Source: Tridacna crocea (taxonomy: Eukaryota; Mollusca; Bivalvia; Cardiida; Cardiidae). From it: a stretch of 64,000 bases of DNA. The stretch's first letter is position 1, and every line of letters begins with the position of its first letter. The notes beneath the pieces are model-generated. The model searched no databases and was not told the DNA's origin. It saw only the letters and a program-made list of their open reading frames with translations. The position numbers were made by a program, and so were the translations under genes. Of this stretch, positions 22,301 through 41,836 are shown piece after piece. Location: positions 24,288,127 to 24,352,126 of the forward strand of contig OX031066.1 in the NCBI GenBank assembly GCA_943736015.1, in the 5' to 3' direction.

Positions 22301-25300
22301 TAAAACACATACCTCAAACATCTTCAGAAGATTTTTCTTGGTCAATTCCAGGCGTTCAAAAGGCTGTTTTTCCTTCACTATTTGCTTCACTTTGTTTTCT
22401 ATCACAGGATAATCATAACCTGACACTTGTCTGAAATAAATTGATTGTTTGGTGTTTTACACTCCTTCAACATTATATTAGTCCCATCCCAGCTTAAGTT
22501 TACTTATTTACTTATGTTCTGGGTTTCATCTATACAAGGCTGGGGTTCTGAAGCATCTTGCCCAAGGACACTCCAACCTACAGCCTAGCTCCTCTGGTCA
22601 GGAAGGAACACCTGACGGCTCAATTTCAAGTCTTATATCCCATCAATAAGCCGCTCAGAACTCCCTGCCTGAAATAAAGAAATACTGATTGTAACCCCCT
22701 TGGAAAGTCAAGTATTTGCAGATCCCATGATGCATCTAAGATTTTAAATAGGCAGGAATATTTGACAAGCCCCTGAAAATAAATTTCAAGAGAGGGAAAA
22801 GGGGGAGGGTAGAAAACTTAGTATGTTTGACATTATACTGAACCTTAATAAACTTACATGAATTCAGATATTTACATCAACATGCAAAAGACTATGGTCC
22901 GTATTCACCAACCATTCTTAAGAACATTCTTGGTCTTATTCTTCAAGATTTCCTGACGGTGAAAGTAACAAGACTTTTGATTGGCTGAACCGAATGGTTT
23001 AGCCAATCAGAAGTTTTGTCACTTTCACACTGACAAAATGCTGGAGAATAAGACCAAGAATGATCTTAAGAATGGTTGGTGAATATGGACCCATATTTTA
23101 CAATGTACAATAAATCTAACATAATTTTCAAAGTCTGCATTATGCAGTGCAGAGTTAACCCTTTACCAAACAACAAAATTTTAGACTGATCCAAATTGAA
23201 AGCATTTGCAGACGACAACATAAAAGTGACTGAAAATTTGTTTTATGAAGATAAGAAAACATTGTGGGAAAAGGAGAAAATGTTGGTTACCAGCATTTTC
23301 TCCTTTTCCCACAATGTTTTGTAAAGGCTTCTTTCTTAGGGGCGTCAAAAGTAGGGATTGTGTGGTAATGGGTTAAGAGACCTGATGAAAAAATGATTAC
23401 CTCCAACGAAAATTCAATGCCTGGAAGCCCCATGTTCAACCCTCAACCCTTGTTGCTCTGCATTTTTCACAGAAATGTAATTGGATAAGATACTTCAAAA
23501 CCCACAACATGCATAATTAGTAAGCTGTTGTATTAATACAACCACAAAAATTGTTTAACTCTTCACCAAACGATACAATTTTAGACTGGTCCAAATTGAA
23601 AGCATCAAAATTTTGCAGACAACAAAATAAACATGACTTAAAAATTTAAATTTGTTTTAGGAACAGTAGAAAACAGTGTGGGAAAAGGAGAAAATGCATT
23701 TTCTCCTTTTCCCACAAAGTTGTTCTTCGGGGTCATTAAAAGTCGGAATTGTGTGGTAATGGGTTACTATTGGCACAACATACTGTTTAAATCAGTTCCC
23801 TTTATGTTTTCTACCCTTTCCAAGATGAATCCTTAACCCATTACCACACAATCCCTACTTTTGACTCCCCTGAGAAAGAAGCCTTTAGAAAACATTGTTG
23901 GAAAAGGAGAAAATGCTGGTAACTCAGCATTCTCTCCTTTTCCCACAATGATTTCTACCCTTCACAAAACAAATTTCAAATTTCAAGTCACTTTTATTTT
24001 GTCGTCTGCAAATGCTTTCAATTCGGACAAGCCCAGAATATTGTGGTTTGGTAAAGTGTTAAACCACAATATTTTGTCTGAACACACAATAATTTAATAT
24101 CAGTAACTGTTGTTTTCATGAACATTGGAGTGTTCTGATTGGCTGGAAAACTTTTTCATACATGTAGCTCCATGAATAAAAAAACCCTCCTAATGCCATA
24201 CTTTCGCTGAGGGTTACTTTTGCGGGTCCTACACACTGCTTTGCTCATTTACTTTCGTTCCATTGGATAATTTCAGTATCGGGGATCTGAAAACTGCTTC
24301 CCTATTGTATTCTTGTGCCATACAAATGAGTGGAAGGAGCTTTAGAAACTCCAAGGTTAGATTTAAAAATAAAGAAAATGAATGCAGTTTGAATTATTTC
24401 CATGAGTGTATGTTGTCTGTGATATTAAATTATGTGGAATGAAGAGAACTTTATTTCTTTCATGGAGGTATGAAAAAAAAAGCGTAATCACACTTTTGTA
24501 TGAAACCGCTTCGCCGTTCTTTCTCATGATAGTTCAGTCAGAAATATGAAGTGAAGGGTTAAAGGACACTCGTGTAACTTTACCTTTCACACCACATATC
24601 GTAGTAGAAACCTCCTTCAATAGGTGGTCCATAACACAGGTGACCACCATATAAACATTCCATTGCTTCTCCCATTATATGAGCACTAGAGTGCCAAAAC
24701 ACATACTGACCTGAAACAGAGAAGGGGCATGAACAAACAGGCAGTCCATAATCTCCCAAATCATAAAATCACAGACCTGTTCGAACTAGAGCTATTACTT
24801 AACCCATTACCACACAATCCCTACTTTTGACGCCCCTGAGAAAGCAGCCTTTAGAAAACATTGTGGGAAAAGGAGAAAATGCTGGTAACCAGCATTTTCT
24901 CCTTTTCCAACAATGTTTTCTACCCTTCACAAAACAAATTTCAAATTTTCAGTCACTTTTATTATGTCGTCTGCAAATGCTTTCAATTCGGAACAGTCTA
25001 AAATATTGTCGTTTGGTAATGGGTTAACTTGATTATACCCCCTCCCCACAGCCAGGTCCTTGTCACAAAAACAGGTCTATGTCACAGAATGAAGAATGGT
25101 TTAGTACAATGGTAAGAGTTTAAAAAAGTTGAAAGGGAGATAATTCCACAACAAATCGCAGCAGGGTCATGAAAATTGCACATGCATAACTTCATATATA
25201 CATATATAGGAACAATGTGTGTAAATTTGAGTCCAGTACCCTTAAAAGTCTTGGGGAATTTCACCCAACAATTTGTGTCTATGGACTAGGGCTCCGTATC

Positions 25301-28300
25301 GGTCAGTTTGATCGATACGATATTTGTATCTATACAAAATGATCGATATTCGATATATCATATGATATTTCAATTTTCAATAAAAGAAAGAAAAAAATGC
25401 GAAAATTGTGTTTGTTCTTTTTTCAGCATACCTGAAAAACAAAATACCGCAAATTTAACACTTCTAGATTGTATTGAAATTTCATAATTATGTAGGCCTA
25501 AATTAATATGAATTCTAACTAGATCTACATTTACTACTCATTAAAAAGCTGAAAAGACAGTCTAAGAGGACTCTGATCGGACAATGTCAAGGAGACATTT
25601 TCTTGTGTCATGGGTTTCCGTGGTTTTTTTTTCACCGAACAATTTTTCATGCGTGTTAATTTCTGGATAGGTATGTTCGCATGATTCGACATAGATTTCT
25701 CAATAAGGATTAGAACTACATGTAACATCAAAACATGTTATTTTACTCACGATAAACAGATAATGGCCTTTTTTGTCCATGTTTTTTCTTACGTGAGGTC
25801 TCGCGTGTGATTAACATTTGTTATGCAAATTTCAAGTCTATAAAATGATTTACACAATAATTTACACGAGTCGGAACACTGATTTCAGATAATCTAATTG
25901 AAAAAGAGATTTGATTTTCGAGCCACATTTTTCGGCAATATTAAAAGATCCACCAAATAAAATCTTAGGAAGGTTGAAAGGTCACGGCTTCAATTATTTC
26001 CATCGCTACCTCTCGATCACATCACGAGATGTTCATTACCTTTCTTTAATCAACTATATTGACCAATTATCAGCGTAAATTTGTCTGCAATCTGCTGATT
26101 GATGCATAATTTGCAAATTTCAAACAACATGACGGGGGAACGAGAATAGGGGTATTAGCTAATTGTCATCCATTGTGTAACGGGTACAGGGCGAGTAATA
26201 AAGAATGACGCATTTCGATTGGTTGTAAGTTTCCCAGGTAGCCACACCTACCTCTACGACTACTCGACTTTAGAGATTACCTAAAGTAAACTCGTAATGA
26301 ATTTCGCCGTTAAAAACAACTAAATTGGGTATTTATATGCTTTACTTTTATTTTCTTTTGATGATCGATATTTTGTTCGATACAGAAACGTTCGATCCGA
26401 TATATCTATCGAACGTAAAATACCGGTTTTCGATATATATCGAGTACCGGTACGGAGCCCTACTATGGACAGACTGCCAGCCATGTTGATTCCAGTATAC
26501 CACCCTCCACTTTGTTGTGTGTTTTTGTGTGTGTGTGTGTGTGTGTGTGTGGGGGGGGGGGGGGGGTATAATGACAAAAAAATATGGCTCTGCTGTAACG
26601 TGTAACGGCCTGGTCACCAATGCAAGCACTAACTATAACCATCTTGCCTAACTTGCAAGGCAGATTTGAAGTGCTTATATATCTAACTGCTCTCTGTTAC
26701 ATTACTCTCTCCTTCGAAAAGTCTCAAACCCAAGACTTATAGATAAGTAAACTATGGGAAGGGTAAGGCAACTCCAGTCCAGCAGTTGACATAATCCCAC
26801 CTCTGCCGCCTCTGCAGGTAATAGAATCGGGACAAAAACTAAGTTGAAGGCACAGTATAAGCTTAAAAACAATGCTGGTGTTAAAATACCCTTCCCGAAA
26901 CAAATTTCCATTTTCCAGTCATACTAATTTTTTTTTTGTTTGCAAATGCTTTCAATTTGGTCTGGTCAAAAAGTTTGTCATGGTAAAGAGTTAACAAAGC
27001 ACATTTGCAGAAACTTCAAAAAGATTCCTCGTAAGACCAGGATTGATACATTGAAAAGAGAACATAATGATAGAAATTGACAAAAAATGCTCGTATCTTT
27101 TTTCCCCTTTGCCATAGCCTTAAACTTTTTTTAAAATCTTTATCAAACAACAAAATTTTACACTTGTCCAAACTGAAAGAATTTGTAGAGGACAAAATAA
27201 GTGTGACTCAAAAATTGAAACACGACTTTAGAAGAGTAGTAAACATTGTGGGAAAAGAAAAAAATGCTGGGTACCAGCATTTTCTCCTTTTTCCACAATG
27301 TTTTCAAAAGGCTTCTTCCTCTTAGTCATAATAACCAGAAATTGTTTGGTAAGGGTTAAGGTGATATGTGACAAGATACAGACACGATACAGACAGCCAA
27401 GTACAGAAGATAATGGGTTGACAGACTTTGTACGTACCATCGCTGTCTTCGAATTTCAGCAGTTGCAAAGTAGCATCGGCTTCAAAAGGTCTATCCAGGT
27501 CCCATAACACATCGTTAACTTTAGCCACTACAGTGCTGTCTGCTAGACCTTGACTGTGGAAACAATACATCATTCAATTCAGAACTCCAGATGGAGGGAG
27601 TGATTTTGATTTCAAAATTGAAAATGTTATGAATTTGCCTCTAAACCCTATGTTGTGGGTACTCATTGGAATCATCTCGTCGAGACGATTCCAATGAGTA
27701 CCCACAACATAGGGTTTCAAAGAGAAATAATTGTTTTAGAAAACCATCACTCCCTCTTATCTGGAGCTCTGGTTCATATTCTTCTAAGCATTTACTAGAC
27801 AACAAAATTTTAACCATATCCAGACCAAGAGCATTTGACGACGACAGTGTCAGTGTGACTCCATGTGACTTGATTGGTGCAATTTTACTTTGATAGGTTA
27901 GAAAACATTGCACAAAAAAGGAGAAAAAGCTGGTAATCACCATTTTCTCTTTTTCACACAATGTATTCGGAGTTGTGTGGTCAGGGAAAAATTCTAACAC
28001 GACGTGAATTTGGCTCTATAAACATAGTGCAACGAAAGCGTGGTAAAATCTACGTTACTCTTCATAGAGCGACATTTATTCAATGGAATATAATCTTCAT
28101 TCACGTTTTTACTCTAAGTATGAAATTATATACCTTTCTTGTTTTTAAGACATAGTCATGTTAGAATCAAAATATCTTCTTTCATTGTGGTTGGCATCGT
28201 GTGGTAAAGCGTTAACTCTTTACCGGGTAACAAAATTCCAGTCGTGTTCAAATTAAAGGTGTTTGCAGACAACTGCAGACAACTAATTAAAGGTGGCCCA

Positions 28301-31300
28301 AATGACAAAATTAGTTCTTGAAAGGTACAAAACATTTAAGCTATGCTTTAACAAAAGGAGGCTTAACTCATTACCAAACAACAGTATTTCACGCTTGTCC
28401 AAATCGAAAGCATTTGCAGATGACAAAATAAAAGTGACTGAAAATTTGAAATTTGTTTTGTGAGGAGTAGAAAACATTGTTGGAAAAGGAAAAAATGCTG
28501 GTTACCAGCATTTTCACCTTTTCCCATAATGTTTTCTAAAGGTTTCCTTCTCAGGGTCATCAAAAGTAGGGATTGTGTGGTAATGGGTTAAGGGGGGAAT
28601 CTGTGGCAAGCCATAACACACTTAGCAACATGTTTTTAAACAACTGACTTAATCATGAGGTAGACTGGTACATGAACATACAGAAAAATGACCTATTGCA
28701 AAAAGTTTCAACTAAGGTCAGTCTGTGCCCACTGCACATGCCGACTTGGGCTGACACTGACGCAGATGTACTACGCCTCATTCTCTTCTTTTCCAATAAT
28801 GTTTCCAAACCCTCCATATGTCAGGGTCGTTAAAAGTTGTAATTGCATGATTTACTCTTTACCAAACAACAACATTTTGGACAAGTCCAAATTGAAACCA
28901 TTTGCAGACGACAATAAATGTGAATCAAAAATTGAAATTTGATTTGGAAAGGAGAGAAAACATTGTGGGAAAGGGTGGAAATGCTGGTGCCAACAATGTT
29001 TTCAAAGGCTTTCTTTCTCAGGGTCTTTAAAAGTCAGGATTGTGTGGTATAAAATTAAGATATAAATCTTCAAACCTGATGCCTTTGGCAACTTCATACG
29101 GAGTGGTTTCCCATGCCTTTCCATCCACCACCTTGCCATCTGGTAGAGTGATTTTGATTGGTGTTTTTTCTTGTGAAATGACCCAATCATCATATTCTTT
29201 CTTTAAAGTGGCCCATAATTCATTTCTTGAGGCAATGAACTCTGGAGGTGGGTTAAGCTTTAATAAAACAAAATATAAATATCCATTTAACTTGTTACCA
29301 CACAATAAAATTTTAGACTGGTTCAAATTGAAAGCATTTGCAGACAACAAAATAAAGGTGACTGAAAAATTAAAATTTGATCTGGGAAGGGTAGAAAACA
29401 CTGGGGGAAAAGGAGAAAATGCTGGTTACCAGCATTTTCTCCTTTTCCTACTGTGTTTTCAAAAGGCTTCTTTCTTTGGGGCATCAAAAGTAGGGATTGT
29501 GTGGTATTGGGTTACGCAACTGACATGAAATGGATTAATCAGACAGTACAATAACATTTCAATCAAAACATATTGAAAGCTCTTTTTCTGTCAGAGAATC
29601 TTAAAAAATAGCAAACAGTGCAACAAAGAACATAATGTATTTCCTGTGCAGTCAGACCTTGGATTTAAAGCAATGAATATTCTGGGAAATTTTCCAGCCC
29701 AATCAACATCTCAATGATAGGATCTTTTAAAAGGCTCCTATCTGATTTTTTTTCTGCAAATCAATTCTTTCGCTAAAGTGTTGAGTGGATAGTGTTTAAT
29801 GCTGTTTTCAACATTATTTCAGTTATTTTGCTATGTTCTGCGTACCAATCCATGCCTTCCCAAAGTTTCTTTATACAGGTTCTCTGCACAGTATTCTTTC
29901 CCAACCACTGACTGCTTTCCCACATGACCTTCGCCACAATAATGGTGACAGTTCAGCTGTGAAAGAGGAATGAATCCTGTCCCAATGACTAACACCAATC
30001 CTCTGAAAGAAATTGCCCAAGCTGGGGACAAACCAAATCAGCAACCCTGTGTTCTCATGTCCTCAATGCTACCATCTGAACCAACAGGGTTCGGCTTTCA
30101 GCCACAGACTGGTATGTAATGATAAATCTATGCTTTTTTCCAAACCTACAGAAAGCCAGGTCAAAAGGTACAAATTTGGCATTAACCCTTTCCAAAACAA
30201 GCCTTAGTTTTTACTTGTGTGCAGTAAAAGTCTTTTGAAAACACTATGGGAAAAGGAGAAATTGCTCGTAACGAGCAATTTCTCCTTTTCCCCCAGTGTT
30301 TTCTACCCTTTTTGAGAACATTCTGCCATTTTCTCCAAATCTCCAACTATAGTCTGCAAACTCTTTTGGTTTGGAAGGGTCCAAAATTTATTTTTTGGGA
30401 AAGGGTTAAAACAACCAGTTGGTTGCTAAGCAATCAGTCAGTCCATATATTTTTCATCAGATCAAATATGAGTTTTTCTTTTTTATTTGAATCTGATCCA
30501 CAGGATATTAGACATGTGTTATACCCATTCTCAGAAACTTTTGTGAAATTGTAGCCAAAGTTCAAAAAACTACCTTACAGGCTTAAGAGCTCAATAAAAG
30601 AATGGCACAAAGTCAACCATTACTTTCAAATGACTCAAAAAGCATCTTCATTTTTTTCTAAATTTGTAGGGCAGTGGTGTATTAGCCCAAACAAGATTAA
30701 CTAGAAATTGCAAAACAAGAAAAAAAGTACAGTAAACTCCTCTATTAAGACCAATCACGATACTTTTAAAATTTGGTCCTATTGGTGGGGTGGTCTAATA
30801 TCTGGGTTTCACACACCTACATTTTGATATAAACCCATGCTCTGAATAGACTTGTGCATGGCTAAATGATGTGAATAGTGAATTCATTTGACTTAGGAAA
30901 GCCTAAGTGCACAAATGAAAATGACAACAACATTTTCATGTTCACTGGAAAGTTTTATTTTTTCTTGAATTTGTTAATTGAATCCACCTGTAAACACATG
31001 TTAATTCATAATTGCCAATTTAAAATAATCATAACCAGGTCTGTACATTAATTAACTTAATGCATCTGAAGACTAAAGGATTTAATGTTAGTACTAATAG
31101 AGTTTTTGCTTTTTCACTTTGAGTAGTCTTAAGAACTTATTCTCCAACTGCTGAATTTCATTCTTAAACAAAGATTTTCGAATACATGCCGATCTTTGAG
31201 CGTTTGAGGTCCAGGCACCCCCCTTTTCTTTTCATCTGAGTTGATTATTCGAACAGGCCTGATGATCGCTGATCCTACAGTCTCTGTGTTCACATGATGA

Positions 31301-33612
31301 CAATCGCATAATCGTTACACTCTAATTACAGTATGTAAAGTGCCAATTTCAATGTTGATCACCACTATACCCCAACATCTGCCATAAACAATAAGTCTTA
31401 GTCACCCGGATGTAGACATGTTTATCATCCGGGTCAGCGTGTGTGATAAACGCTTGATTGCGGTGTGAAAGCCAAATCGATGGTTAAAAATATCCATTTA
31501 TGGGTCATTCGATTATGTTACGCAACATGTGGACAAACCTCTGGCTGTTGATTGAATGTCAATATCATCTGACCCAAGAGTATTCGTACATGTGGCACAG
31601 TCTATGGTTCGCAATTACGGACATGTGAAAATTGGCTGGTTGTAAAAATGTTATGGAAATCGAGCGGTCATTTCTTGGGGTTAAAATCCACTAGTAAATT
31701 CATACAGGTACTGAAAATGGTATTTGCAATTCCCGGGTTCAACTTCATGATCATGGATCTTTAAGAAGGAAAAATTCCGTTCTGGCAAAAATTGTTCTTA
31801 ATAGCAGGTTGCTCTTAACTGGCAAAAATCATTCATAATAGCGAGAGGTCGGGAGGAGAGATTTTACTGCATAACAATTGTTCTTCATGATAGTTTTCCT
31901 TTTTGTCCTTCCAAGTAAAAGATCTAATAACAGCCTGTACTTTAACTGGTTGACAAAAAATGATTACCTCTTTTAGCTTTAGTTCATCCCCTTGACCTGC
32001 CTCTTTCTTTTTCTGAAAAAAAAAAGAAGAACAGTTAAACATTTACCAAATAACAAAATTATTGTTGTATTTATATATTACAAGAGCTTGAGGTAGAAAA
32101 TATTGTTGAAAAAGGAAAAAGTGTTCTTAAACTGCATTTTCTCTGCTTCAATGTTTTTAAAATGCTTCTACTAGATATGTATAACAGAATTTTCCATATA
32201 GGGTTGGCTTTTGAAAACATTGTGAGAGAAAAAGGTGGCAAATTTAATATTTGACTAATATTTAACTTATCTTCAAACCTATTGAATTGGATGACTGAAC
32301 AATTTTGTCATGTGGTAAATAGCTGATTAAAAGGAACTGGTTATAGTATACTGATATACAAATAACCCATGAACTGTTAATACATATACCCTAAGCCAGT
32401 AAGTATACCTCTGAGTAAGACAGCCAATGAAACAATAAAGGAAACGGACGAAACTAATGTTCAAGAAATTATTTATTCTTACAAAGTTTTCTACATCATT
32501 CACAATCATTTCCAGTCCGAAGCAGCCTATGTCTGGCAAGTTAGCTGATTGTCTACATTCAAAAAGCGTATGCTTGTTGGTTTTTTTTGCATAGATAATC
32601 AGCATTTAGTAAGGTAAACAGCGACTTCAAAAGGGTAGAAACATTGTGTTCAGAGGAGAAAATGATCAATAACCATGTTTTCTCCTTTTCCTTCAATACT
32701 TTTCTCATGATTGAATATGTTATCACAAAATAAAAACTAAAACCTTCCCCTTTAAAAATATAAGCAAACAGGGAAAAGTCAATTCTAACAAAACAGAATA
32801 AAACTCCTTGCCTCATTCTCCATTTCCATATCAGTTTCCAATAAAAATCTTATTTTAAAAACTAATCTTATACCCCAAGACTAGGAAAACTGACGCAACA
32901 AATTGATGTTAATCTTTAAATGCTCTATTAGTTTTGAATTGAGTAAAATCTTGCAGCTATTTATACTAGTTTCAGAAACATGATTTCATCAGTTTTCCTT
33001 AGCTCAAAAAATTGATATCAAGTCTGAAAGTGAAACTAGATCTAATTCAATTCTATTCATCAGGAAAAAAGGACGAATAGCATGTAAATTAAAACTGTGT
33101 ACAAAGTAAAGGAAGGTAGGAGGAAACCATGATATGACAAGTTCACTATTGGTGATTGGTATTGATTTTTTTTTTCTTGTCTCAAACTTGTATTTTCTAC
33201 ATCATGGGCAGACATGGAGACAATCTATTTTTAGAACAGGATGATGCAACTCGGCTGTCAGTGCCACGACTCTGTGCAATGATAATCTTTGGATTCCCCT
33301 AGAAAATAGTGTAGAGGCTTATCATTTACTTTCAATGAGATTCAATGCAACACTCTACATTGTAATTATGCGAATATGCTGTAAACAATGGGCAAAAGGA
33401 TTCAACACACCCTATTTCCATGACTCTTAGGGCAAAGAGTTGACTCGTATCTGCACAGTAGTGTTGGCCCTAACGCTCTGTGGAGGAAAGAACGATACAT
33501 TCTCGACAACATTTTACGAGAAATTAATAAATCGGTCTACTTTAAAATGTCATGCCTTTTTCTTGTTCGATATATCCATTTTCGCAACCTCCTTTTCCAC
33601 GTTTTCAGCCAT
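1201..33612 (-). CDS. TARS1: TARS1 gene span: cytosolic threonine--tRNA ligase, 20 coding exons, complete
   Basis: Attaches threonine to tRNA-Thr in the cytosol. The 20 exons listed separately total 2127 nt (708 residues plus stop); all reading phases agree across the junctions, and the length is close to animal TARS1 (about 720). Domains in order: a short lysine-rich N-terminus (1-34) with no evident mitochondrial presequence; TGS domain (about 67-130, starting [10 protein letters not shown]); editing domain with HSSAH (His140, His144) and CRGPH (Cys245, His249); class II catalytic core with zinc ligands Cys397 (NCPGHC), His448 (QDDAH) and His575 (IIHRA), motif 2 RVRRF (438-442) and motif 3 [10 protein letters not shown] (580-589); C-terminal anticodon-binding domain (about 605-705). 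The ATG at 33612-33610 has A at -3 and G at +4 and is the first ATG in its open frame. The introns are filled with MITEs and SINEs. No essential residue is missing. Confidence 0.97.
1470..1940 (+). mobile_element. 465-bp foldback repeat, copy 1
   Basis: Starts TTATCTCATGCTTTCTGGTA; the last 135 bp form an inverted repeat (GGTAATATTTTCAC / GTGAAAATATTACC). No protein. Confidence 0.78.
2120..2392. mobile_element. MITE with ~58-bp terminal inverted repeats
   Basis: Ends ATATGGAGTGCAACACGCG and CGCGTGTTGCACTCCATAT; arms continue through CATTCGGACATTTGCGTAAA. Inside lies a second GC-rich palindrome (GATTAGCCTGCGCAG..). The arms give the short ORFs here. Confidence 0.85.
2415..2745. mobile_element. 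GAGCCATGCTC repeat interrupted by a SINE fragment
   Basis: Right end TTTTCACAGAGTATGGCTCA matches the 63140-63383 element; inner palindrome GGGTCAGACTGTGCAGGCTGACC-like at about 2667-2695. Confidence 0.65.
2524..2615 (-). mobile_element. tRNA-derived SINE fragment
   Basis: Minus strand has TACCTCAGTGGTTAGCA (box A-like) and GGGGGTTCGATACCC (box B-like), without the rest of the SINE body. Confidence 0.7.
2758..2980 (-). mobile_element. TTAA hairpin MITE
   Basis: Both TTAA ends present; one palindrome arm is diverged (CATTTTGTCCCACAAGG). Confidence 0.8.
3040..3298 (-). mobile_element. tRNA-derived SINE, reference copy
   Basis: Minus strand: GTAGCTCAGTCGGTAGCATG (box A) and GGTTCTATCC (box B), then a body with GATGTTAGTCATTGCGAT, ACCATTGTTTCAGGGATGG and a tail ATAATGTTGAAAACATTGTT, a tail type common in mollusc SINEs. 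Lies 49 bp from TARS1 exon 19. Confidence 0.8.
3347..3461 (-). CDS. TARS1: TARS1 exon 19
   Basis: Residues 622-660 ([35 protein letters not shown]). Anticodon-binding domain. Acceptor cttcag and donor gtaaat. Confidence 0.97.
3562..3788 (+). mobile_element. TTAA hairpin MITE
   Basis: Both TTAA ends and an almost perfect palindrome. Confidence 0.82.
3893..4175 (+). mobile_element. Mollusc-type interspersed repeat, copy 1
   Basis: Starts AGAGCTGTCACTGAATGTGA and has GGGGAAATAATTCCACAAC, GACACACAGACAGACAGCTG and GATTCCAGAATACC near the end. Also at 10972, 17299 and 24783. Confidence 0.7.
4233..4600 (-). mobile_element. TTAA hairpin MITE plus adjoining fragment
   Basis: A degraded copy to about 4465, followed by a second partial copy (about 4470-4600) that stops within its palindrome just downstream of TARS1 exon 18. 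Confidence 0.65.
4629..4701 (-). CDS. TARS1: TARS1 exon 18
   Basis: Residues 597-621 ([25 protein letters not shown]), start of the anticodon-binding domain. Acceptor ttctag and donor gtatag. Confidence 0.96.
4748..4976 (-). mobile_element. tRNA-derived SINE overlapping the exon 18 flank
   Basis: Box A-like GGCTCAGTGGTTAAGTTG, box B-like GAGTTCGAACAG; tail ATAATGTTGAAGTGGCATAA. Confidence 0.75.
5028..5230 (+). mobile_element. TTAA hairpin MITE, degraded left end
   Basis: Palindrome with mismatches and consensus right half; TTAA lost at both ends. Confidence 0.7.
5247..5718 (+). mobile_element. 465-bp foldback repeat, copy 2
   Basis: Same order as copy 1, including GTTGGTACAACCAGTGAA and the terminal inverted repeat. 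Confidence 0.78.
5846..5953 (-). CDS. TARS1: TARS1 exon 17 (motif 3)
   Basis: Residues 561-597. Carries [20 protein letters not shown]: His575 is the third zinc ligand and GSVER is motif 3 with the ATP-binding arginine. Acceptor tttcag and donor TG|gtaaga; Trp597 is split with exon 18. Confidence 0.98.
6040..6244 (+). mobile_element. TTAA hairpin MITE, degraded
   Basis: Recognisable by the GAAAACATTGTGG...TTTCCTACAATG hairpin and a right end GGGAAAAGGTTAA. Confidence 0.65.
6445..6705. mobile_element. Two TTAA hairpin MITE fragments
   Basis: Right half of one copy (6445-6585) and the hairpin region of another (6590-6705), both badly diverged. Confidence 0.5.
6712..7185 (-). mobile_element. 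tRNA-derived SINE, split by a MITE
   Basis: Tail side 6712-6861 and head side 7050-7185 (GGTTCGATTCCGGG) flank the AGAGCTCC MITE. Confidence 0.8.
6862..7049 (+). mobile_element. AGAGCTCC MITE copy 2, nested in a SINE
   Basis: Complete; interrupts the SINE at 6712-7185. ATAACC appears on both sides (ATAACC|GAAGCTCC and GAGCTCTG|ATAACC), a likely target duplication. Confidence 0.85.
7334..7553 (+). mobile_element. TTAA hairpin MITE, 7 bp from TARS1 exon 16
   Basis: Its right end GGTAAAGGGTTTAA runs into the exon 16 donor region. Confidence 0.78.
7561..7661 (-). CDS. TARS1: TARS1 exon 16
   Basis: Residues 528-561 ([20 protein letters not shown], then [13 protein letters not shown]). Catalytic core strands leading to motif 3. 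Acceptor gtgcag and donor gtaagt. Confidence 0.97.
7840..8190. mobile_element. Two partial TTAA hairpin MITEs
   Basis: Copy at about 7845-8015 has a perfect palindrome but no left end; a second hairpin piece at about 8113-8190. Confidence 0.6.
8222..8490 (-). mobile_element. tRNA-derived SINE
   Basis: Full-length relative of the 3040 copy; box B followed by a C/G-run (GGGGGGGTTCGATC). Confidence 0.8.
8503..8733 (-). mobile_element. TTAA hairpin MITE
   Basis: Both TTAA ends; palindrome imperfect. Confidence 0.8.
8769..8846 (-). CDS. TARS1: TARS1 exon 15
   Basis: Residues 502-527, including [14 protein letters not shown], an active-site loop conserved in all ThrRS. Acceptor tttgcag and donor gtaact; exactly 26 codons. 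Confidence 0.97.
8880..9075 (+). mobile_element. TTAA hairpin MITE, right end truncated
   Basis: Begins ACACTATCCCTACTTTTGA and stops after GCTTTAACTTG. Confidence 0.7.
9290..9707 (-). mobile_element. Two TTAA hairpin MITEs in tandem
   Basis: First copy 9290 to about 9510, second about 9515-9707, same orientation and sharing the unusual stretch TGAATCAAAAATTGATTTTTG.. in both. Looks like a local duplication or unequal exchange. Confidence 0.72.
9998..10226 (+). mobile_element. TTAA hairpin MITE
   Basis: Left end TTTACCCATTACC (TTAA mutated), intact palindrome and right TTAA. Confidence 0.82.
10241..10412 (+). repeat. 17-bp minisatellite
   Basis: About ten units of AACATCAGAGTATGAAC with point variants (..GGAC) in the right half. 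Confidence 0.85.
10475..10760. mobile_element. GGCAGGGGACT palindromic repeat
   Basis: Right part is an inverted repeat (GGGGACTAGGAAACTTGTTC / AAGTTTCCAAGTCCCC) around CATGTCGCTACATTGCC. Partial copies at 46925-47110 and 57753-57830. Confidence 0.65.
10804..10941 (-). CDS. TARS1: TARS1 exon 14
   Basis: Residues 456-501 ([37 protein letters not shown]). Catalytic core between motifs 2 and 3. Acceptor tttcag and donor gtaagt; phase 0 at both ends. Confidence 0.97.
10972..11345 (+). mobile_element. Mollusc-type interspersed repeat, copy 2
   Basis: As copy 1, with the ACAGACAGACACATGGACAG segment duplicated. Confidence 0.7.
11553..11772 (-). mobile_element. TTAA hairpin MITE
   Basis: Both TTAA ends; 42 bp from TARS1 exon 13. 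Confidence 0.82.
11814..11976 (-). CDS. TARS1: TARS1 exon 13 (motif 2)
   Basis: Residues 401-455. Carries [15 protein letters not shown], motif 2 [13 protein letters not shown] with the motif-2 arginine, and His448, the second zinc ligand. Donor CAG|gtacct; acceptor tttgcag. Confidence 0.98.
12591..12990 (+). mobile_element. TTAA hairpin MITE plus a degraded hairpin
   Basis: Full copy 12591-12817 with both TTAA ends; a further degraded hairpin piece at about 12895-12985. Confidence 0.75.
13388..13458 (-). CDS. TARS1: TARS1 exon 12 (zinc cysteine)
   Basis: Residues 378-401. Ends [10 protein letters not shown]; Cys397 corresponds to the zinc ligand Cys334 of the E. coli enzyme. Acceptor ttgcag and donor TG|gtaagt; Cys401 is split with exon 13. 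Confidence 0.97.
13505..14095 (-). mobile_element. Cluster of three TTAA hairpin MITEs
   Basis: Hairpin piece 13505-13575, then copies 13575-13801 and 13868-14095, the last two in the same orientation. Confidence 0.75.
15271..15366 (-). CDS. TARS1: TARS1 exon 11 (motif 1 region)
   Basis: Residues 346-377 ([27 protein letters not shown]). Contains class II motif 1, the dimer-interface strand with its conserved proline. Acceptor tttcag and donor gtaagt. Confidence 0.97.
15498..15960 (-). mobile_element. Two degraded TTAA hairpin MITEs
   Basis: 15498-15705 with a nearly perfect palindrome, and about 15735-15960 strongly diverged. Confidence 0.6.
16110..17100 (+). repeat. ~155-bp tandem array in TARS1 intron 10
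   Basis: GGCTACTTTTCCCATACT recurs at about 16155, 16306, 16466, 16616, 16770 and 16928 with spacing 150-160 bp. The array ends in ACGGACGGACAGACAGAC-type sequence and TAGAGCTAAAA. Confidence 0.85.
17299..17620 (+). mobile_element. Mollusc-type interspersed repeat, copy 3
   Basis: Starts AGAGCTATCACTAAACCCGA and ends GTTGTGGGGGGTATAA; ends 31 bp from TARS1 exon 10. Confidence 0.7.
17652..17750 (-). CDS. TARS1: TARS1 exon 10
   Basis: Residues 313-345 ([20 protein letters not shown]), entry to the class II catalytic fold. Acceptor attacag and donor gtttgt; phase 0 at both ends. Confidence 0.97.
17793..18260 (-). mobile_element. 465-bp foldback repeat, copy 3
   Basis: Opposite orientation, ending GCCAGAAAGCATGATATAAT. 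A neighbouring 18261-18490 segment recurs inverted at about 39760-39950. Confidence 0.75.
18982..19128 (-). CDS. TARS1: TARS1 exon 9
   Basis: Residues 264-312 ([26 protein letters not shown]). Linker from the editing domain into the catalytic core. Acceptor atgcag and donor gtaggt; phase 0 at both ends. Confidence 0.97.
19185..19419 (+). mobile_element. TTAA hairpin MITE nested in an older repeat
   Basis: Both TTAA ends; inserted just inside the GAGCCATGCTC end of the 19173-20105 repeat. Confidence 0.82.
19504..19707. mobile_element. ATGACCYGTCA inverted-end MITE
   Basis: Ends ATGACCTGTCACGCAAAAAG and TTTTTGTGTGACGGGTCAT, about 204 bp. Others at 39364-39587, 41173-41778 (with an internal insertion) and 53461-53705. 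Confidence 0.72.
19850..20077 (+). mobile_element. TTAA hairpin MITE, variant stem
   Basis: Ends degraded. Stem arms read GAAATTGCTC and GAGCAATTTC instead of the common AAAATGCTGG/CCAGCATTTT. Confidence 0.68.
20436..20514 (-). CDS. TARS1: TARS1 exon 8
   Basis: Residues 237-263 ([20 protein letters not shown]). Supplies Cys245 and His249 of the editing-site CxxxH. Acceptor attcag and donor gtaaat. Confidence 0.97.
20530..20750 (+). mobile_element. TTAA hairpin MITE, degraded right end
   Basis: Left end ATCCTTTACCACACAATCCC and intact palindrome; lies 16 bp upstream of TARS1 exon 8 in the transcript sense. Confidence 0.72.
20945..21122 (+). mobile_element. AGAGCTCC MITE copy 3
   Basis: Complete ends; one palindrome arm shortened. 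Confidence 0.8.
21612..21768 (-). mobile_element. AGAGCTCC MITE copy 4, diverged
   Basis: Opposite orientation, decayed end near 21612; the other end lies about 20 bp from the donor of TARS1 exon 7. Confidence 0.7.
21789..21853 (-). CDS. TARS1: TARS1 exon 7 (65 nt)
   Basis: Residues 216-237, encoding [13 protein letters not shown] followed by a proline/threonine run and VYK. Equivalent to YNKFK..EKV..TPTTTVYR in vertebrate TARS1. Acceptor cttttcag and donor AA|gtaagc; the split codon with exon 8 gives Lys237. A copy of the AGAGCTCC-type MITE ends about 20 bp past the donor. Confidence 0.93.
22051..22275 (+). mobile_element. TTAA hairpin MITE
   Basis: Left TTAA intact, right end GGTAAAGGATTA; 38 bp from TARS1 exon 6. 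Confidence 0.82.
22313..22430 (-). CDS. TARS1: TARS1 exon 6
   Basis: Residues 176-215, the helical part of the editing domain ([15 protein letters not shown]). Acceptor atttcag and donor gtatgt; ends in phase 0. Confidence 0.94.
22443..22630 (-). mobile_element. tRNA-derived SINE, diverged
   Basis: Tail ATAATGTTGAAGGAGTGTAA and a body resembling the 4748 copy. Confidence 0.55.
22894..23094. mobile_element. ~200-bp MITE with 45-bp inverted repeats
   Basis: Arms TTCACCAACCATTCTTAAGA and its complement, continuing through CTTGGTCTTATTCT; centre has GATTGGCTGAACC/GGTTTAGCCAATC. Confidence 0.85.
23155..23376 (-). mobile_element. TTAA hairpin MITE
   Basis: Both TTAA ends and near-perfect palindrome. 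Confidence 0.85.
23555..23766 (-). mobile_element. TTAA hairpin MITE with shortened stem
   Basis: The palindrome has lost its GCTGG..CCAGC centre, leaving GGAGAAAATGCATTTTCTCC as a perfect shorter hairpin. Confidence 0.82.
23833..24062 (+). mobile_element. TTAA hairpin MITE
   Basis: Both TTAA ends; one base inserted at the palindrome centre. Confidence 0.85.
24584..24710 (-). CDS. TARS1: TARS1 exon 5
   Basis: Residues 134-176, start of the editing domain. Contains [13 protein letters not shown] with the HxxxH pair (His140, His144), followed by [13 protein letters not shown]. Acceptor tttcag and donor gtaaag; Arg176 is completed by exon 6. Confidence 0.97.
24799..25027 (+). mobile_element. 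TTAA hairpin MITE inside a mollusc-type repeat
   Basis: Perfect ends and palindrome. Inserted in the repeat that starts at about 24783; comparison with the uninterrupted copy at 17299 shows that only TTAA is duplicated. Confidence 0.88.
25287..26462. mobile_element. hAT-like non-autonomous element, exact 8-bp target duplication
   Basis: Ends TAGGGCTCCGTA and TACGGAGCCCTA, flanked by CTATGGAC at 25279-25286 and 26463-26470. Subterminal ATCGATAT-rich inverted sequence. 1176 bp; no transposase recognised. The 8-bp duplication and TAGGG ends fit the hAT superfamily. Confidence 0.9.
26870..26993 (+). mobile_element. TTAA hairpin MITE, right half only
   Basis: From ACCCTTCCCGAAACAAATTT to GGTAAAGAGTTAA. 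Confidence 0.65.
27131..27359 (-). mobile_element. TTAA hairpin MITE
   Basis: Both TTAA ends; 79 bp from TARS1 exon 4. Confidence 0.8.
27438..27553 (-). CDS. TARS1: TARS1 exon 4
   Basis: Residues 95-134, second half of TGS ([28 protein letters not shown]). Acceptor ccacag and donor gtacgt. Gly134 is split with exon 5. Confidence 0.96.
27581..27771 (+). mobile_element. AGAGCTCC MITE copy 5
   Basis: Complete, with a long near-perfect palindrome; stem variant CATTGGAATC/GATTCCAATG. Confidence 0.85.
27786..27990 (-). mobile_element. TTAA hairpin MITE, degraded ends
   Basis: Imperfect palindrome at about 27915-27960 and a diverged body. Confidence 0.6.
28212..28591 (-). mobile_element. TTAA hairpin MITE and an adjoining fragment
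   Basis: Partial copy 28212-28360, then a full copy 28363-28591 with both TTAA ends. Confidence 0.78.
28850..29058 (-). mobile_element. TTAA hairpin MITE lacking part of the palindrome
   Basis: The second arm is reduced (GCTGGTGCCAACAATG); it lies 18 bp from TARS1 exon 3. Confidence 0.72.
29076..29257 (-). CDS. TARS1: TARS1 exon 3
   Basis: Residues 35-95. Starts LNPPPEF, which corresponds to the conserved ELNPWPEY of vertebrate enzymes, and carries the first half of the TGS domain ([20 protein letters not shown]). The donor is AG|gtttga; Ser95 is split with exon 4. Confidence 0.95.
29287..29514 (-). mobile_element. TTAA hairpin MITE, 30 bp from TARS1 exon 3
   Basis: Left TTAA intact, right end GGGTTACG. 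With the previous copy it flanks exon 3 on both sides. Confidence 0.82.
29783..30098 (-). mobile_element. tRNA-derived SINE
   Basis: Full-length but with decayed box B (TTTGGTTTGTCCCC). Confidence 0.75.
30182..30409 (+). mobile_element. TTAA hairpin MITE, variant stem
   Basis: Both TTAA ends. The stem is perfect but reads GAAATTGCTCG/CGAGCAATTTC. Confidence 0.82.
30730..31869. mobile_element. pogo/Tigger-like non-autonomous element
   Basis: Left end CAGTAAACTCCTCTATTAAG preceded by TA; right end complement CAGTAAAATCTCTCCTCCC. No transposase seen in 1.14 kb. In TARS1 intron 2. Confidence 0.55.
31968..32012 (-). CDS. TARS1: TARS1 exon 2
   Basis: A 45-nt exon (15 codons, residues 20-34) encoding a charged stretch beginning [10 protein letters not shown]. 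It has a strong acceptor after a T-run (ttttcag) and a gtaatc donor, with phase 0 on both sides. It matches the lysine-rich N-terminal linker of animal TARS1. Confidence 0.85.
32033..32325 (-). mobile_element. TTAA hairpin MITE, very degraded
   Basis: Left end TTAAACATTTACCAAATAAC and right end GGTAAATAGCTGATT with a decayed hairpin; a further hairpin remnant lies at about 32632-32705. Confidence 0.45.
33556..33612 (-). CDS. TARS1: TARS1 exon 1 (start codon)
   Basis: Encodes residues 1-19, beginning MAENVEKE and ending in lysines. The frame meets TGA two codons after the proposed end. Joining to exon 2 therefore needs a donor just before, and the best fit is AAG|GCATGA, a GC donor. Weaker GT alternatives inside the exon (AAC|GTGGAA, GAG|GTTGCG) would shorten the N-terminus in frame. 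Confidence 0.75.
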
Positions 33613-33761
33613 ACTTCTTGAAATTAAGCTGGTATCCGGGGTTGCTCTGTCAAATCCTTCTTCAAAAACATCTAAGCCGGCTACCAGTTCAAATTTGCGG
33701 CTTTGACTAAGACGCGGACATGATAGGAGTTTATCATGAACAAAAACGGAAATACGGGTAT
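33613..33761 (-). promoter_or_regulatory. TARS1 5' leader / presumed promoter
   Basis: Only about 150 bp separate the ATG from the foldback element. No TATA box seen. The TARS1 frame stays open here without an ATG. The transcription start is unknown. Confidence 0.35.
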
Positions 33762-34965
33762 GTGTATTCCCCGGCCCCAATCAAAAATAGGCCGTAATTC
33801 CCGGCCCTACCGGCCCCCTTGCTAGATATTTTATTTGTCAGTACATTTTGATAAAATTAGCACCAAATTAAAGGTTAGGTAATAACCTTTTTAATGGTAT
33901 GTAGAAACTTGATTTTTCATGCATGTGTAGATATGATAAAAGTGTTTGAAATTCTTTTTTTTTTTGCTGAAATGCGTCGTAATTTGTTAGTGATAAAATC
34001 CGGCCCCACTTGCTAAATATTTCATTTATTTGCCAAATTTAATAAGACTGGCACCAAATTAAAGCTTAGGTAATAACCTTTCTAATGGTGTGAATAAACT
34101 TGACTTTTCATGCATGTGTAGCGTTTGAAATTCGTCCTTTTCTATTACTGAAATGTGTTCTGATTTTTTAGAGATAAAAACCCGGCCCCTATATTTAAAT
34201 CTTGTTTTTCCCTTGATTCTAAGAAAAATTTTATCGTTATAAAGTCCTTAACTTAAGCTCTTGAATGATATTAAGAAAATAGAAATTGACGCATGCATTA
34301 TTGGGTAATTAGACTTTTAACTTTATACATTTTTAGAAGGGAATACACTGTATTTATATGTGTGAATCCAACAACCTATCCGGTCCCTATATTAAGAATT
34401 AAACTTTTCAAACAATATAAAAGATTATGATATAATTTCAAAGTTCATATGAAAGCCTGATATCTAAGCTCTAATACTATTTTGAGCACAATGCAACGAA
34501 AAATAAAAGATTTAGCATGGGGGCCGGATTTGTGTTACTCATCTAATACCTGGAAGAAAATACGAAAATCTTATCTACTTTTGATTGACAATATTTCAGA
34601 AAGTTTTGCAATGAACATATTGTATTTCATATCATATGAAAGTCTGAAATCTAGGCTTCAATTTAGTACTTTTTAGAGCATAATACAACGAAAAATAAAA
34701 GATTTAGCATAGGGGCCGGATTTGTGTAACTCACTAAATACCTGAAAGGAAATACGAAAATCTTACCCACTTTTGATTGACAATATTTCAAAAAGTTTTG
34801 CAATGACCATAGTGTATTTAACATCATATAAAAGTCTGAAATCTAGGCTTCATTTTAATACTATTCTGAGCATAATACAACTAAAAATAAAAGATTTGGC
34901 ATGGGGGCCGCAAGGGCCGGGAATTATGACCCATTTTGACAGGTAGGGCCGGGAAATACACTTTG
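33762..34965. mobile_element. Foldback element next to the TARS1 start
   Basis: Inverted ends of about 65 bp (GTGTATTCCCCGGCCC; GGGCCGGGAAATACAC) and arms built of ~190-bp repeats: GAAAAATAAAAGATTTAGCAT at about 34497, 34690 and 34880 on the right, CACCAAATTAAAGSTTAGGT twice on the left. No ORF of note. Confidence 0.75.
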
Positions 34966-37900
34966 CCATTTGGTAATGACTTACTTAATCCAATATTTTA
35001 GTAGACTGGTTACCGCCCCTGATACACTACGTGTATAGGGACAGGTACAGGCTAATCGAAACGGGGCGAATTCTGCCCGTATTATGCGAGGTAACTGTGC
35101 AAGTAGTAACTTAGAGTAGCGTCTCTTGATTTTTGTGTGTATGTTTTTTGTGGGTGTAAAAAGCAATAGCTATGAAAATAATTTTCGATATTACTGTCTT
35201 TTAAAGTGATTGTTTTGTGATCATAATATAATTACTTATGCATGGTATCATTTCAACAAACGATAGGTGAATGTCTAAAATTTGATAGAAAAAAAAATGT
35301 TAATGATTATAAGAGTAAATTATTTGATTATTATGTTTATAATAAAAGCTAAATTAATGAATACATGAAAAATTTTCAAGTGCTGACGTTGAACTTTTAC
35401 TAAAAAAATTAACATCAAAATAACAAATATAATGCACAAGTTTGTACTTGATAAAGCAGAAAGGGTAATAAGATAATCAATTATCTTATAAATTGAATTG
35501 TAGGTTGCAATTCTCAAAGATTAAAGTCCGTTGTCCCTTTGAAGAAGCCTGCAGAGATAAGCCTAGGGGCAATAAAACACATGTGGTGTCTAATCATCTT
35601 TTAATTCTCCCTTAACATTTAATTTCTTTGTTTTGTAAGGAATAAAGAAGCATGTTTCAACATTTATTAACAAGTGTTTGGGGGGAAAAAATTAAAAGGG
35701 GGGAAAATTGTTTGCCGAATATTTATGTATTACTCAGTTGTTCAGATGTCTAATAGTCAAAAAATTAAATGAATAAAGACTTTAGAGAGGATTTGAAATA
35801 AAAGTATCTAATTAACCCATTACCAGACGACCAAATTTTAGACTATTCCAAATTGAAACAAATTGCAGACGACATTTTAAAGAGCATTTAAATTGAAAAT
35901 AAGTACTATGTAGGGTAGAAAAATTTGTGAGAAAAGGAGAAATTGCTTGTTACAAGTAATTTCTCCTTTTCTCACAATGGAATGTTCAGATTTCCCTCTC
36001 TTTTTTATCTAAAAAAAAAAGATCATTCTAGATGGAAAAGGTCCTTTTATCTGAAAGTTATAAATTATGCTCTATGAATACCTGTATTCTACTATTTATT
36101 AATAACATAATAATCAAAATAAGAATGAAATAAAGTCAACTGAGCACATTGTCAGGTTACTCGATATATGTTTCGAGCCGTTTCATTGGCCGTATCAATT
36201 ATCCAATCACAGGGCACGGTACGATTAGCTTGTGCCTGTTGTAATACACGGTATACAACGGTGGCCAGTTCAATATTTTAGTTGTTTCAGCCTGTTGATA
36301 AATCGAGTTGAGAGAATATTCACTCAGTCAGTGTGAAAAAAAGAAGGGTAACATATTTATAAGTGGCATAAAACCAATCTATGTTCCTGAAATTACAATA
36401 GGAAATTGTAATTTGCTAGATATTTGATTGACTAAAAAAAGACAGTTAAAAAAAAAACACACACATACACACACACACACACACATGAAAACCAAAAGTT
36501 TTTTGTAACCGCGAAAATATTTCAAAAGTCTATCAACTGTTGCACTAGGAGAAAAAAAAATGTGTATAGATTTGAGTTTTCATAGTTTTCAATCTGGCAA
36601 GCGTATTGTTCCTCAGAGCAGAACAGTTAGAGTATTTGTTTTTTTGCAAGTCAGCATGGAAACATTCCTGTGAAATTATTTCAAAATTCTACCACAGGTT
36701 TAGAAGATGAGTTGTTGAAAGATTTTCCCTCTTTTAATGGTGGCCCTTTAGATTTTGGGATGAAAGTTTTACAAAAATACCAAAAAATCATCCTTATACT
36801 CCTAAAGCCTTTCAATCTTCATTCATAAAACCCCAGTAGATCTAGTCGAAAACTGTCCGACAACAAGAGAAAGCAGAGATTTACAATGGCCCAGGTCGAC
36901 CCAGGAATTACAGTCTATTTTTACAGCAACTGGCTCATTTACACACCAGAAAAACACAGACGAAGCTTCAAACACAGCATCCGAAGAAGGCATCATGAAA
37001 AATAATAACATATTTGTCATGTAATAGAATTTAATTAAGCTTCATTAGTCACGTACCAATCACTTGACATTCCCAGATGCTTTTTTTTATTTTTGGCACG
37101 AAATCTAAGACGTCATTTTTGGTGAAAAATGTGGAATGTGTGGATCAAAGACCAGACTCAATGGCCTGTGCAGTCTGATCTTTGATTTACATTGTCTACA
37201 AGAGATCCTTGAGTCAAGCTTAGAAGCCGAAGGGTTAATGAAGTTGATTGCTCCACATCTTACTGTTTCATCTGTTGATGTTCTTTGACAATATTTTATT
37301 AGTATGATTCCAATATTTCGTCTGTGTACTTGAAAAACGTAGTAACTACAGCTTGAGACGAGTTGTAGTTACGATGTTTTTGAAGTAAACCTTGGTTTTT
37401 GTAGTTTTGATAACTGCTATTGTTCCATTTATTTTCTAAATAGCAACTACTGAAAGAAAATATACTATCTTTCTGCTCATTTACATAACAGAACAAACGC
37501 CTTTTTGCTTTTCATTCTGTTTTAAAACAGGCTTTTCATTACAAAAGGAAAACCACACACCGTACATTTTGAAACGACAACATTCGGTAAAATTAATGGT
37601 CAAAGGGAGAAAACTCTCATATACTTGTCCTTATATTTACCAGAGTTTCTTCCCTTATAACTGTGAACAGCATAAAACCGAGAACGAATGAAAATGGCTA
37701 TATAAGTCCATGAAGACGATCAGCAGGCAAAACTTTGGATCCTTTTTTCTTGTGTGAAAAAAACATTCCAATACTTTTTCATCATGTTCATTAAATCTTC
37801 ATAGTTCTGATAATAACACATCATCAGAGCCGAACTAAAGTACTTAACCGCTGTACTATTTCAGTTAAATGAAACGGCAAAAAGAAGCACGATGGCATCG

Positions 37901-38549
37901 TATCCACACAGTAGTCTCCCTTGCATTTATTTACATTAGAAAAAAAATGGGTCAAGCAGCCGAATTTTATCTTTGGATCAAATGGTATTGTTTTAACCAG
38001 TTAGTTTTTGCTCTGGATATTATACATTGACAGAACGATCACTTTGTGCTGTTGATAGGTAAACATATCGAAAGCGTAAAGGTCATAAACACTGTCTAAT
38101 GTTGTAATCCAAGTCAAATTGGAACTTTCCAAAGGAGGATTAGTGGATTTGTTGCGATCGCAAATGAATAACACGATAAGTAAACATTTCTGCTTCCTGA
38201 GAACCACACCAGTACTCACACCGAATATGTGGGCCTATGAAATTTCCCAAAGTTGAAACCCTGGTTTTGAACTCGATCGGGTTGTCATGGATACGAGGCA
38301 GATGTTCCTCCTCACAACCACGGATACTACAGGTATGCTTTCGAAATTTCTGTTACAATTCACGGTAACTTTATCTAATATCAAGAGTTTTTTCCTGTTG
38401 TTATTTCTTGATCACAGAGATCCGTGAACGTTATTCACAGGACAGATTAGAGTTGTAAGGGAGATCACTCTTGATAAATAAGATTTTAAGTATGTACGAG
38501 TTTTCTGCCTTTGACCATGTTCGGTTCTCCTAATTGAAAGGCTTTTATA
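34966..38549. other. Intergenic stretch, little recognised
   Basis: Contains one TTAA MITE (35812), an AC microsatellite (about 36460-36485), a segment with two CCAAT-type boxes (36205-36240), a small palindrome at 37143-37188 and another at 37329-37390 (GTAGTAACTACAGC..). No convincing gene. Confidence 0.5.
35812..36010 (-). mobile_element. TTAA hairpin MITE, variant stem, right end lost
   Basis: Left TTAACCCATTACCAGACGAC; stem GAAATTGCTTGT/ACAAGTAATTTC. Confidence 0.72.
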
Positions 38550-38558
38550 AATAACTGC

Positions 38559-38921
38559 CATCCTCGGATACCCCAGGGTCTCCCTATTTGCTACGCTACA
38601 TCGACCCTGGGACAATTGACTAATAAAACTTTGAATCAGCCGCCGAAAATCGATACGAAACGTCATACCGTACAGTCCACTCGCCCATCACAAAATGATG
38701 ATAGAACCAATGAAAAGCCAGCATTCGGCCAGCGGTAAAGCGAGCCGCCGAAAATCGATACGAAACGTCATAGCGTACAGTACACTCGCCCATCACAAAA
38801 TGATGATGGAACCAATGAAAAGCCAGCATTCGGCCAGCGGTAAAGCGAAGGAAATTCAACTAATTGTCCCAGGAGTCGATGTAGCGTAGCAAATAGGGAG
38901 ACCCCAGGGTATCCGAGGATG
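38559..38921. mobile_element. Mutator-like MITE, exact 9-bp target duplication
   Basis: Flanked by AATAACTGC at 38550-38558 and 38922-38930. Ends CATCCTCGGATACCC and GGGTATCCGAGGATG; arms about 60 bp. The centre has two 105-bp direct repeats starting at about 38638 and 38743 (GCCGCCGAAAATCGATACG). The 9-bp duplication with long inverted repeats fits Mutator-like elements. Confidence 0.87.
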
Positions 38922-39363
38922 AATAACTGCATGAAGACTCTTCAAGTTTTTTTTTCTCTTATTACTGTCTTATGGACCTTTTTACTATAAAATCATGAGT
39001 TTAAACGTCCCGAAATGAAAAACATGGTTGAAAATATTTTGAGAAAAGGAGGAACTGTTTGTAACCAGCATTATTTCCCTTTTCCTGCATCAATCTCAAA
39101 ACCACTCAGTAACAAGCCCTGTGCAGTCATAACTGAGCTAACTGGCTGGGTTTTGAACCAAATGCAACATGCATTTTCTTGAAATAGGAGAACAATTAAA
39201 TTTAAGGCCAATACATGGGTACATTTTATAGAATATTTAATCAATTTTCTGAAAATGGCTTTGAAATCAAAAGATCAACAATTCAACAAAATTATTTTAT
39301 ATTTATTTCAAACATAATTATGCATATATACAACATCTATCGTAGGGTGGATGGAAAAGATAT

Positions 39364-39587
39364 ATGACCCATTATGCAAAATGGGACCTTCTGGAAAATG
39401 CGAAAAGTGTCAACCCTGGTCAGACTGCAAATTGTGACAGTTTCTGTATGAAAAGTGGTCATTGTACCTTGTTATACAATCATTTTTTAATTATCAGCTT
39501 AAACTGACCTCCACTGTTGTTGATCTGTATTCATCTAATTGATGTATGGAATTCCCAGATGGTCCCTTTTTGCATGATGGGTCACAT
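39364..39587. mobile_element. ATGACCYGTCA inverted-end MITE, copy 2
   Basis: Ends ATGACCCATTATGCAAAATG and CTTTTTGCATGATGGGTCA. Confidence 0.7.
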
Positions 39588-41103: not shown

Positions 41104-41172
41104 GAGTCAATGAACTTTGACAAGGCACATTTTGTCCACCTAGTAATACAATAAGAAATACAGAAAACATTT

Positions 41173-41778: not shown

Positions 41779-41836
41779 TTTATGAAAACACAAACTCAGT
41801 GAGTTCTTGTCTTCGCCAAGCTCAGAGGCCTAGAAG

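Follow-up and report, generated by a model that had tools for sequence, protein, structure and literature searches.

The window, the whole 64,000-nt stretch of Tridacna crocea DNA analysed here, is populated by a superfamily of TTAA (piggyBac-type) MITEs, each ~229 bp long (228–230 bp) with TTAA at both ends. At a fixed place in the element, ~137–140 nt from one TTAA and 85–88 nt from the other, lies a foldback: a central palindrome of 67 nt, made of two 33-nt arms and one axis base, which is perfect in the consensus. Searched with an HMM of the element, the window has 78 primary matches, each overlapping no better match by more than half, which span 2761..62600 on both strands; 56 of them are at least 70% complete. 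The common core AATGCTGG...CCAGCATT has 311,367 matches genome-wide, counted with a gap of 3–20 allowed, where the resident-copy counts for which it is the reference, given below, used a gap of 3. Random sampling of ten 3-kb stretches yields 30 ungapped hairpins (~1 per kb), which puts the genome total, on the basis of those ten stretches, at about the order of a million copies in 1.05 Gb. The MITE is short, present in high copy and, judged from its length only, without coding capacity. A search of Rfam with window positions 28000–45000, which hold the hairpins at 30237, 35918 and 41944 and leave out the one at 19905, gives 23 matches at E ≤ 0.1 and none above its gathering cut-off; the best, mir-9457, scores 45 bits versus 90. 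Viral contigs searched with two hairpin patterns have 0 matches to each.

The window also contains other features. Tandem arrays occupy 16138–16970, 34472–34910 and 48915–49959, with units of 155, 192 and 166 bp. On the minus strand at 54055–55500, exon-like fragments match FAD_binding_8 (E 1.5e-13) and, below the cut-off, Ferric_reduct (E 3.4e-5), a pairing that we take to be as in NADPH oxidases. Another near-fully palindromic repeat occurs at 584–646, 6924–6994, 27643–27717 and 40166–40237, and by eye its arms show a matched difference, CATTAGAAT/ATTCTAATG versus CATTGGAAT/ATTCCAATG at 27643. A 121-nt inverted-repeat element has two copies, 1791–1911 and 5568–5688, again with a matched change seen by eye (ATCGGTAA/TTACCGAT versus ATCAGTAA/TTACTGAT).

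The MITEs form four families, A (the common one), B, C and F, with strongly diverged flanks and a single geometry of 102–104 nt, the 67-nt hairpin and 51 nt, family F being represented in this comparison of geometry and flanks by one copy. Between families, the hairpin arms are identical at 57–63 of 66 positions, the left flanks at 53–67% (75% for A–B) and the right flanks at 57–78%. For A and C this amounts to 52/99 in the left flank, 31/50 in the right flank and 57/66 in the arms; for A and B, to 74/99, 39/50 and 60/66. The left-flank alignments A–C, A–F, B–C and B–F stand only 2.7–3.6 sd above shuffled sequence. The right-flank alignments stand 4.9–9.5 sd above it, and the families are therefore related throughout.

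Matched changes on both arms of the hairpin had been reported in an earlier note on this DNA for the copies at 30255, 19925 and 35935, and all three stems lie where it placed them, with the matched changes confirmed. The first is in a family B element that runs 228 bp from TTAA to TTAA (30182..30409, minus strand; TTAA at 30182 and 30406; start CCCTTTCCCAAA, end GGAAAGGG) and has flanks identical to the main consensus at 69/99 and 36/50 positions. Its central palindrome covers 30237..30303 (minus strand), of which 30255–30285 is the inner part; compared with the common stem it has paired 8C, 26T and 31C, and the stem AATTGCTCG-TAA-CGAGCAATT is fully complementary. The second is in a family C element of 229 bp (19850..20078, minus strand; TTAA at 19850 and 20075; start TCCTTTACCCCATAAGG, end GGAGTAAAAGA), with 54/98 and 28/50 flank positions identical to the main type and a palindrome at 19905..19971 (minus strand) that carries paired 21T, 26T and 31C; here ATTGCTC/GAGCAAT are complementary and the next pair inward is mismatched (A opposite C). 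The third, at 35812..35984 on the plus strand, comprises a left part and hairpin. Its main-type, family A-like left flank is 74/102 identical to the consensus, its right flank is not recognisable, and its divergent stem has paired 13A, 26T and 31T; the quoted stretch TTGCTTGT/ACAAGTAA is matched except for a single G opposite T. Both arms of this copy have T at position 31, perhaps because a C–G pair present in the ancestor underwent CpG decay twice, independently. DNA folding of the three stems, in the order 30255, 19925 and 35935, gives −31.9, −22.9 and −24.2 kcal/mol (z −15, −11 and −10).

Shuffling of arms among 67 window copies leaves 23 paired identical changes versus 13.7 expected (sd 3.6). 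The excess in the window is that of the three named copies, because without them there are 14 versus 12.8 expected. A well preserved family A element with the common stem lies at 41840..42061 (plus strand), and its hairpin (41945–42009) pairs along its whole length. Paired changes are also found in family A: 8T>C at 10001..10223 (minus strand; hairpin 10053–10119), in an A group where the change arose apart from family B, and 8C again in a second copy at 29290..29512 (plus strand; hairpin 29394–29460). The element at 52795..53017 (plus strand) has a paired 25A>C that is absent from the other family A hairpins compared (n=85).

The variant stems were also sampled as the first 40 matches listed for the paired variant core, all on contig C1, which sort by right flank into 23 C, 12 B, 4 F and 1 other. 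The majority stem is paired at 33/33 positions in B (10 ungapped copies), 33/33 in F (3) and 32/33 in C (22). The founder stems of A and F differ at 26 and 31, those of F and B at 8, and those of F and C at 14 and 21, in each case on both arms, the F stem being read from 3 ungapped copies. The sole one-arm difference between founders is position 13 in family C, where the arms, read in the same sense, are A/G in 10 copies, G/G in 9, A/A in 2 and G/A in 1 (n=22). More distant copies, L038_976 and L022_3887, have five and six paired changes. In our reading, the matched changes are what sets families apart, and they arose on more than one occasion in source elements.

One alternative is that matched changes are coincident hits after insertion, helped by CpG decay. 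Such hits may explain 31T at 35935 and, in decayed copies, part of the paired G>A, but they do not yield the genome-wide numbers: the paired variant core ATTGCTCGNNNCGAGCAAT has 33,718 matches and a hybrid in which one arm is the common one has 33, a contrast somewhat overstated in that two changes on the same arm are required to make a hybrid. Coincidence is refuted in the case of families B, C and F; as a general account we give it almost no chance.

In an analysis of stem positions for covariation, which the earlier note had proposed, 74 cells across 40 distinct rows are changed on both arms versus 24.1 after shuffling, with 2–8 when partners are slid. The search pattern fixed positions 25–32 in 36 of the 50 rows given for covariation, and positions 8, 13, 14 and 21 are therefore the independent evidence. 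A set of 64 rows not selected by stem (34 of the 45 window hairpins and all 30 random ones) has 29 double-changed cells, 7 of them at position 8, versus 9.2 shuffled, a count that is little informative since slid partners give 14–32. In the same rows 90.1% of cells are paired versus 47–56 for slid partners, and the covariation score is 0.109 versus 0.046–0.058, as is expected for a structure taken from the consensus.

By phylogeny, the 30182..30409 copy falls in a clade with L023_89 and L022_3667 (SH-aLRT 99), and the 35935 copy groups with L022_85, L025_503, w48230 and the B clade (support 89). The history of paired 8C can be read on a tree built from the flanks only, a quick tree of 85 rows in which 61 of 82 inner branches are open and the drawn root is the midpoint. 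On it the 16 paired-8C copies are split between family B and a nested group within family A, and the state needs a minimum of 7 changes. Forcing the 16 rows into one clade costs 149 lnL units (p-AU 4e-48), an exact p that is not to be leaned on, since it is the trait that defines the group and the tree is quick. These placements point to at least two origins of paired 8C. With F as outgroup, 26T/31C is probably ancestral and the common stem derived, which would reverse the polarity of the earlier note, where the common stem was treated as the original. The copies with 26T alone paired number 143 genome-wide, and so few survivors mean that the switch at 26 and 31 also fits a block replacement. 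All data come from one genome.

If all variant stems had a single founder, the matched differences would be shared ancestry or the result of recombination between families. Such a history agrees with 26T and 31C being common to B, C and F, 26T being present also in the 35935 copy, and with three copies (L047:2796-2862, L006:1477-1543 and L004:1477-1543) that join a family B-like right flank to the common (A) stem and do not fall within the main A group of the flank tree. It is rejected at position 8, where paired 8C is not one clade. Paired 14 and 21 occur in C alone among the four families, and the distant L022_3887 and L038_976 hold other paired changes, so that a single founder appears very unlikely overall. 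The three reported stems sit in different flank backgrounds, and independent paired changes exist at 8 (two or more origins), 14 and 21, separate from the shared 26/31; the one-founder history, which the earlier note had named as fatal to its reading, does not hold.

Once inserted, resident copies behave differently from founders. Genome-wide, 11,926 copies have 29C>T on a single arm and 356 have it on both arms, where independence predicts 114 (x3.12). Double change at non-partner positions, a measure of the spread in copy ages, amounts to 395 per orientation versus 150 expected (x2.63). The partner/non-partner ratio at this one position tested genome-wide is 1.18 (se 0.08), an excess of 2.4 se, or ~55 copies, which is ~0.5% of one-arm copies and <1% at two se. 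Resident copies lose pairing almost independently, arm by arm.

In 71 family A copies with at most 12 arm changes there are 16 paired changes versus 8.3 shuffled (p 0.006); without position 8 there are 8 versus 5.6 (p 0.2), and the 54 of these copies not chosen by stem give, likewise without position 8, 7 versus 4.4 (p 0.13). Keeping decayed copies, all 85 have 35 paired changes versus 16.5 shuffled (p 0.001), and 24 versus 13.8 (p 0.019) once positions 8, 26 and 31 are removed, one divergent copy (L022:3937) supplying 4 of those 24. Chance matches suffice to explain family A copies with light decay, position 8 aside, and do not suffice for the families. The axis base of the family A hairpin is flipped from T to A in 7/72 copies versus 58/2880 A/T arm sites (p 0.0009), ~5x the A/T flip rate of the arms (p 0.06 against other kinds of change); a possible source of the flip is inversion of the loop in place.

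Arms could also be copied onto each other. Template switching or the correction of mismatches in a hairpin, acting mainly in sources or at the birth of a copy, would give pairing without selection, and the available part of one study argues for templating as a mechanism in RNA stems (PMC8794818). The small resident partner excess, the paired excess in family A with decayed copies kept and the hint of in-place inversion at the axis all agree with it. The yield is low, however, at ~0.5% of one-arm copies where it could be gauged genome-wide, and the 10/22 family C copies with a one-arm position 13, which shared flank columns do not set apart as a group, speak against a reset at birth. Templating alone also leaves unexplained why the arm sequence outlasts the flanks, and we regard it as unlikely, though with a real chance of being right. 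The earlier note saw in the matched changes either selection for the hairpin or repair of one arm from the other: the choice itself stands, with selection favoured, and repair in resident copies shrinks to the small fraction above.

The comparison of arms and flanks bears on what happens in the source lineages. Of the 78 window copies, 35 are good (flank positions ≥110, arm gaps ≤8 and flank divergence <0.25), and these have 4 paired changes versus 3.3 expected. Their singletons are as frequent in arms (48/2299) as in flanks (124/5197; p 0.45), and columns with a minor state in at least 5 copies number 2/66 in arms versus 47/156 in flanks (p 2e-6). With equal singletons and few shared arm columns, it follows that the arms are free after insertion and have changed little in parent copies. 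The same frequency contrast is weaker in C (p 0.075) and B (p 0.0016). In these families, where an intact core was the basis for selecting copies, singletons are less frequent in arms than in flanks (0.010 versus 0.026 in C, 0.015 versus 0.057 in B).

The ends of the MITEs are those of piggyBac-type elements. Both ends of 30182–30409 and of 19850–20078 carry the TTAA target duplication, and among 39 B, C and F copies TTAA stands at the expected distance at both ends in 23, at one in 14 and at neither in 2. The terminal motif CC[CT]T is present in families B, C and F, which begin CCCTTT at both ends; exceptions are the family A consensus, which begins CTCTTT on the left and CCCTTT on the right, and a candidate autonomous element, which begins CCCATT and CTCATT. 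This candidate mobiliser is 7,203 bp long with ends TTAA-CCCATTACC / CTCATTACC, and has an uninterrupted 492-aa frame with DDE_Tnp_1_7 (2.5e-88); PF13843 matches 118 places in all. Two copies compared over their whole length are 99.9% identical, and three more loci are 99.5–99.98% identical to the L027 locus over 4.1 kb. The near-identical element at these five loci (L025–L029) carries nested MITEs of this superfamily. Its left 67 bp align to the right end of the MITE (z 4.0 without the first 10 bases), the remaining three end pairings give z ~0, and four other piggyBac-type end sequences are less like the MITE ends. From such sequence likeness we infer that the 7,203-bp element may mobilise the MITE. 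A palindrome scan of this element finds none near its ends, its two hairpins being in nested MITEs, and an origin of the hairpin from it is rejected on that ground.

The transposase itself offers another reading. In the accessible text of one study, piggyBac and piggyBat transposases bind palindromes via two cysteine-rich domains (PMC11707139), and the candidate transposase has, read by eye, a Cys/His-rich tail at its end. The palindrome could be a symmetric duplex site, for example for paired cysteine-rich domains of a piggyBac-like transposase, with changes that follow protein specificity and no foldback; families with different ends do have different stems. The MITE pairs over 33-nt arms, however, as against palindromes of 14 and 19 bp in that text (PMC11707139), its paired changes extend to position 8, and the candidate element has no palindrome near its ends. 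A duplex site is, in our estimate, rather improbable.

On balance, we lean towards selection on the foldback in source elements, and not repair in place, because it explains together why founder arms differ jointly, why resident copies decay by losing pairing nearly independently and why the hairpin outlasts the flanks. Copies with paired arms and a nearly kept sequence would be those that multiply. A source element changed on one arm would yield fewer copies until a matching change reached the partner arm, and position 13 of family C (G/G, A/G, A/A) perhaps shows this intermediate stage. We are less confident that the foldback acts as DNA (a cruciform or single-strand hairpin) rather than RNA, in piggyBac-like mobilisation or copying. 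These patterns suggest that spread of the element depends on its hairpin. A bolder proposal, which we advance tentatively as the less probable outcome, is that the foldback is a mobilisation determinant missing from TIR-based piggyBac models: a DNA cruciform or single-strand hairpin, its pairing selected in sources, that would underlie amplification to ~1 copy per kb. Required perfect pairing is opposed by the one-arm A/G state in 10/22 family C copies, and selection on the foldback by a candidate autonomous element without such a hairpin at its ends, by the family A paired excess when decayed copies are kept, by the resident partner excess of 2.4 se, by the fit of the 26/31 switch to a block replacement and by the weaker arm–flank contrast in families C and B.

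The copies run to hundreds of thousands, so that post-insertion decay provides a mutational null that is measurable and separable from change in source elements. Such data can part selection on a foldback from arm-to-arm repair, two explanations that are difficult to tell apart in RNA stems. Should the element depend on its foldback to spread, the cis requirements of non-autonomous piggyBac-type elements would extend past their ends.

Several known systems resemble this one in part. The template-switch account of RNA stems likewise predicts matched changes on both arms, but as described in the available part of the study it is a mutational account (PMC8794818), expected in residents too, where the excess here is small. 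T2-MITEs of the Kolobok type in Xenopus share the TTAA target and long-lived high-copy families, going by the accessible portion of their description (PMC6004289); their terminal motif there is AGGRR (RR), whereas the MITE here starts CCC or CTC. In the open-access literature searched, no covarying MITE palindrome was found, REPINs excepted. These short repeats of Pseudomonas have predicted hairpins in which two-sided compensatory changes are common and from which selection is inferred, according to the available text (PMC3116915), but they are bacterial, RAYT-associated and not TTAA elements, and the likeness is a working one only. The CMITE families of Acropora corals (PMC2872659) are like the MITE here in their TTAA target duplication and CC[CT]T piggyBac-type ends, and comprise several families with different TIRs and a common conserved internal region. 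They differ in being ~100 bp long with ~1600 copies, and the available part of the report (PMC2872659) describes no palindrome or arm covariation. In that same part, the authors suggest that the internal region may help transposition (PMC2872659).
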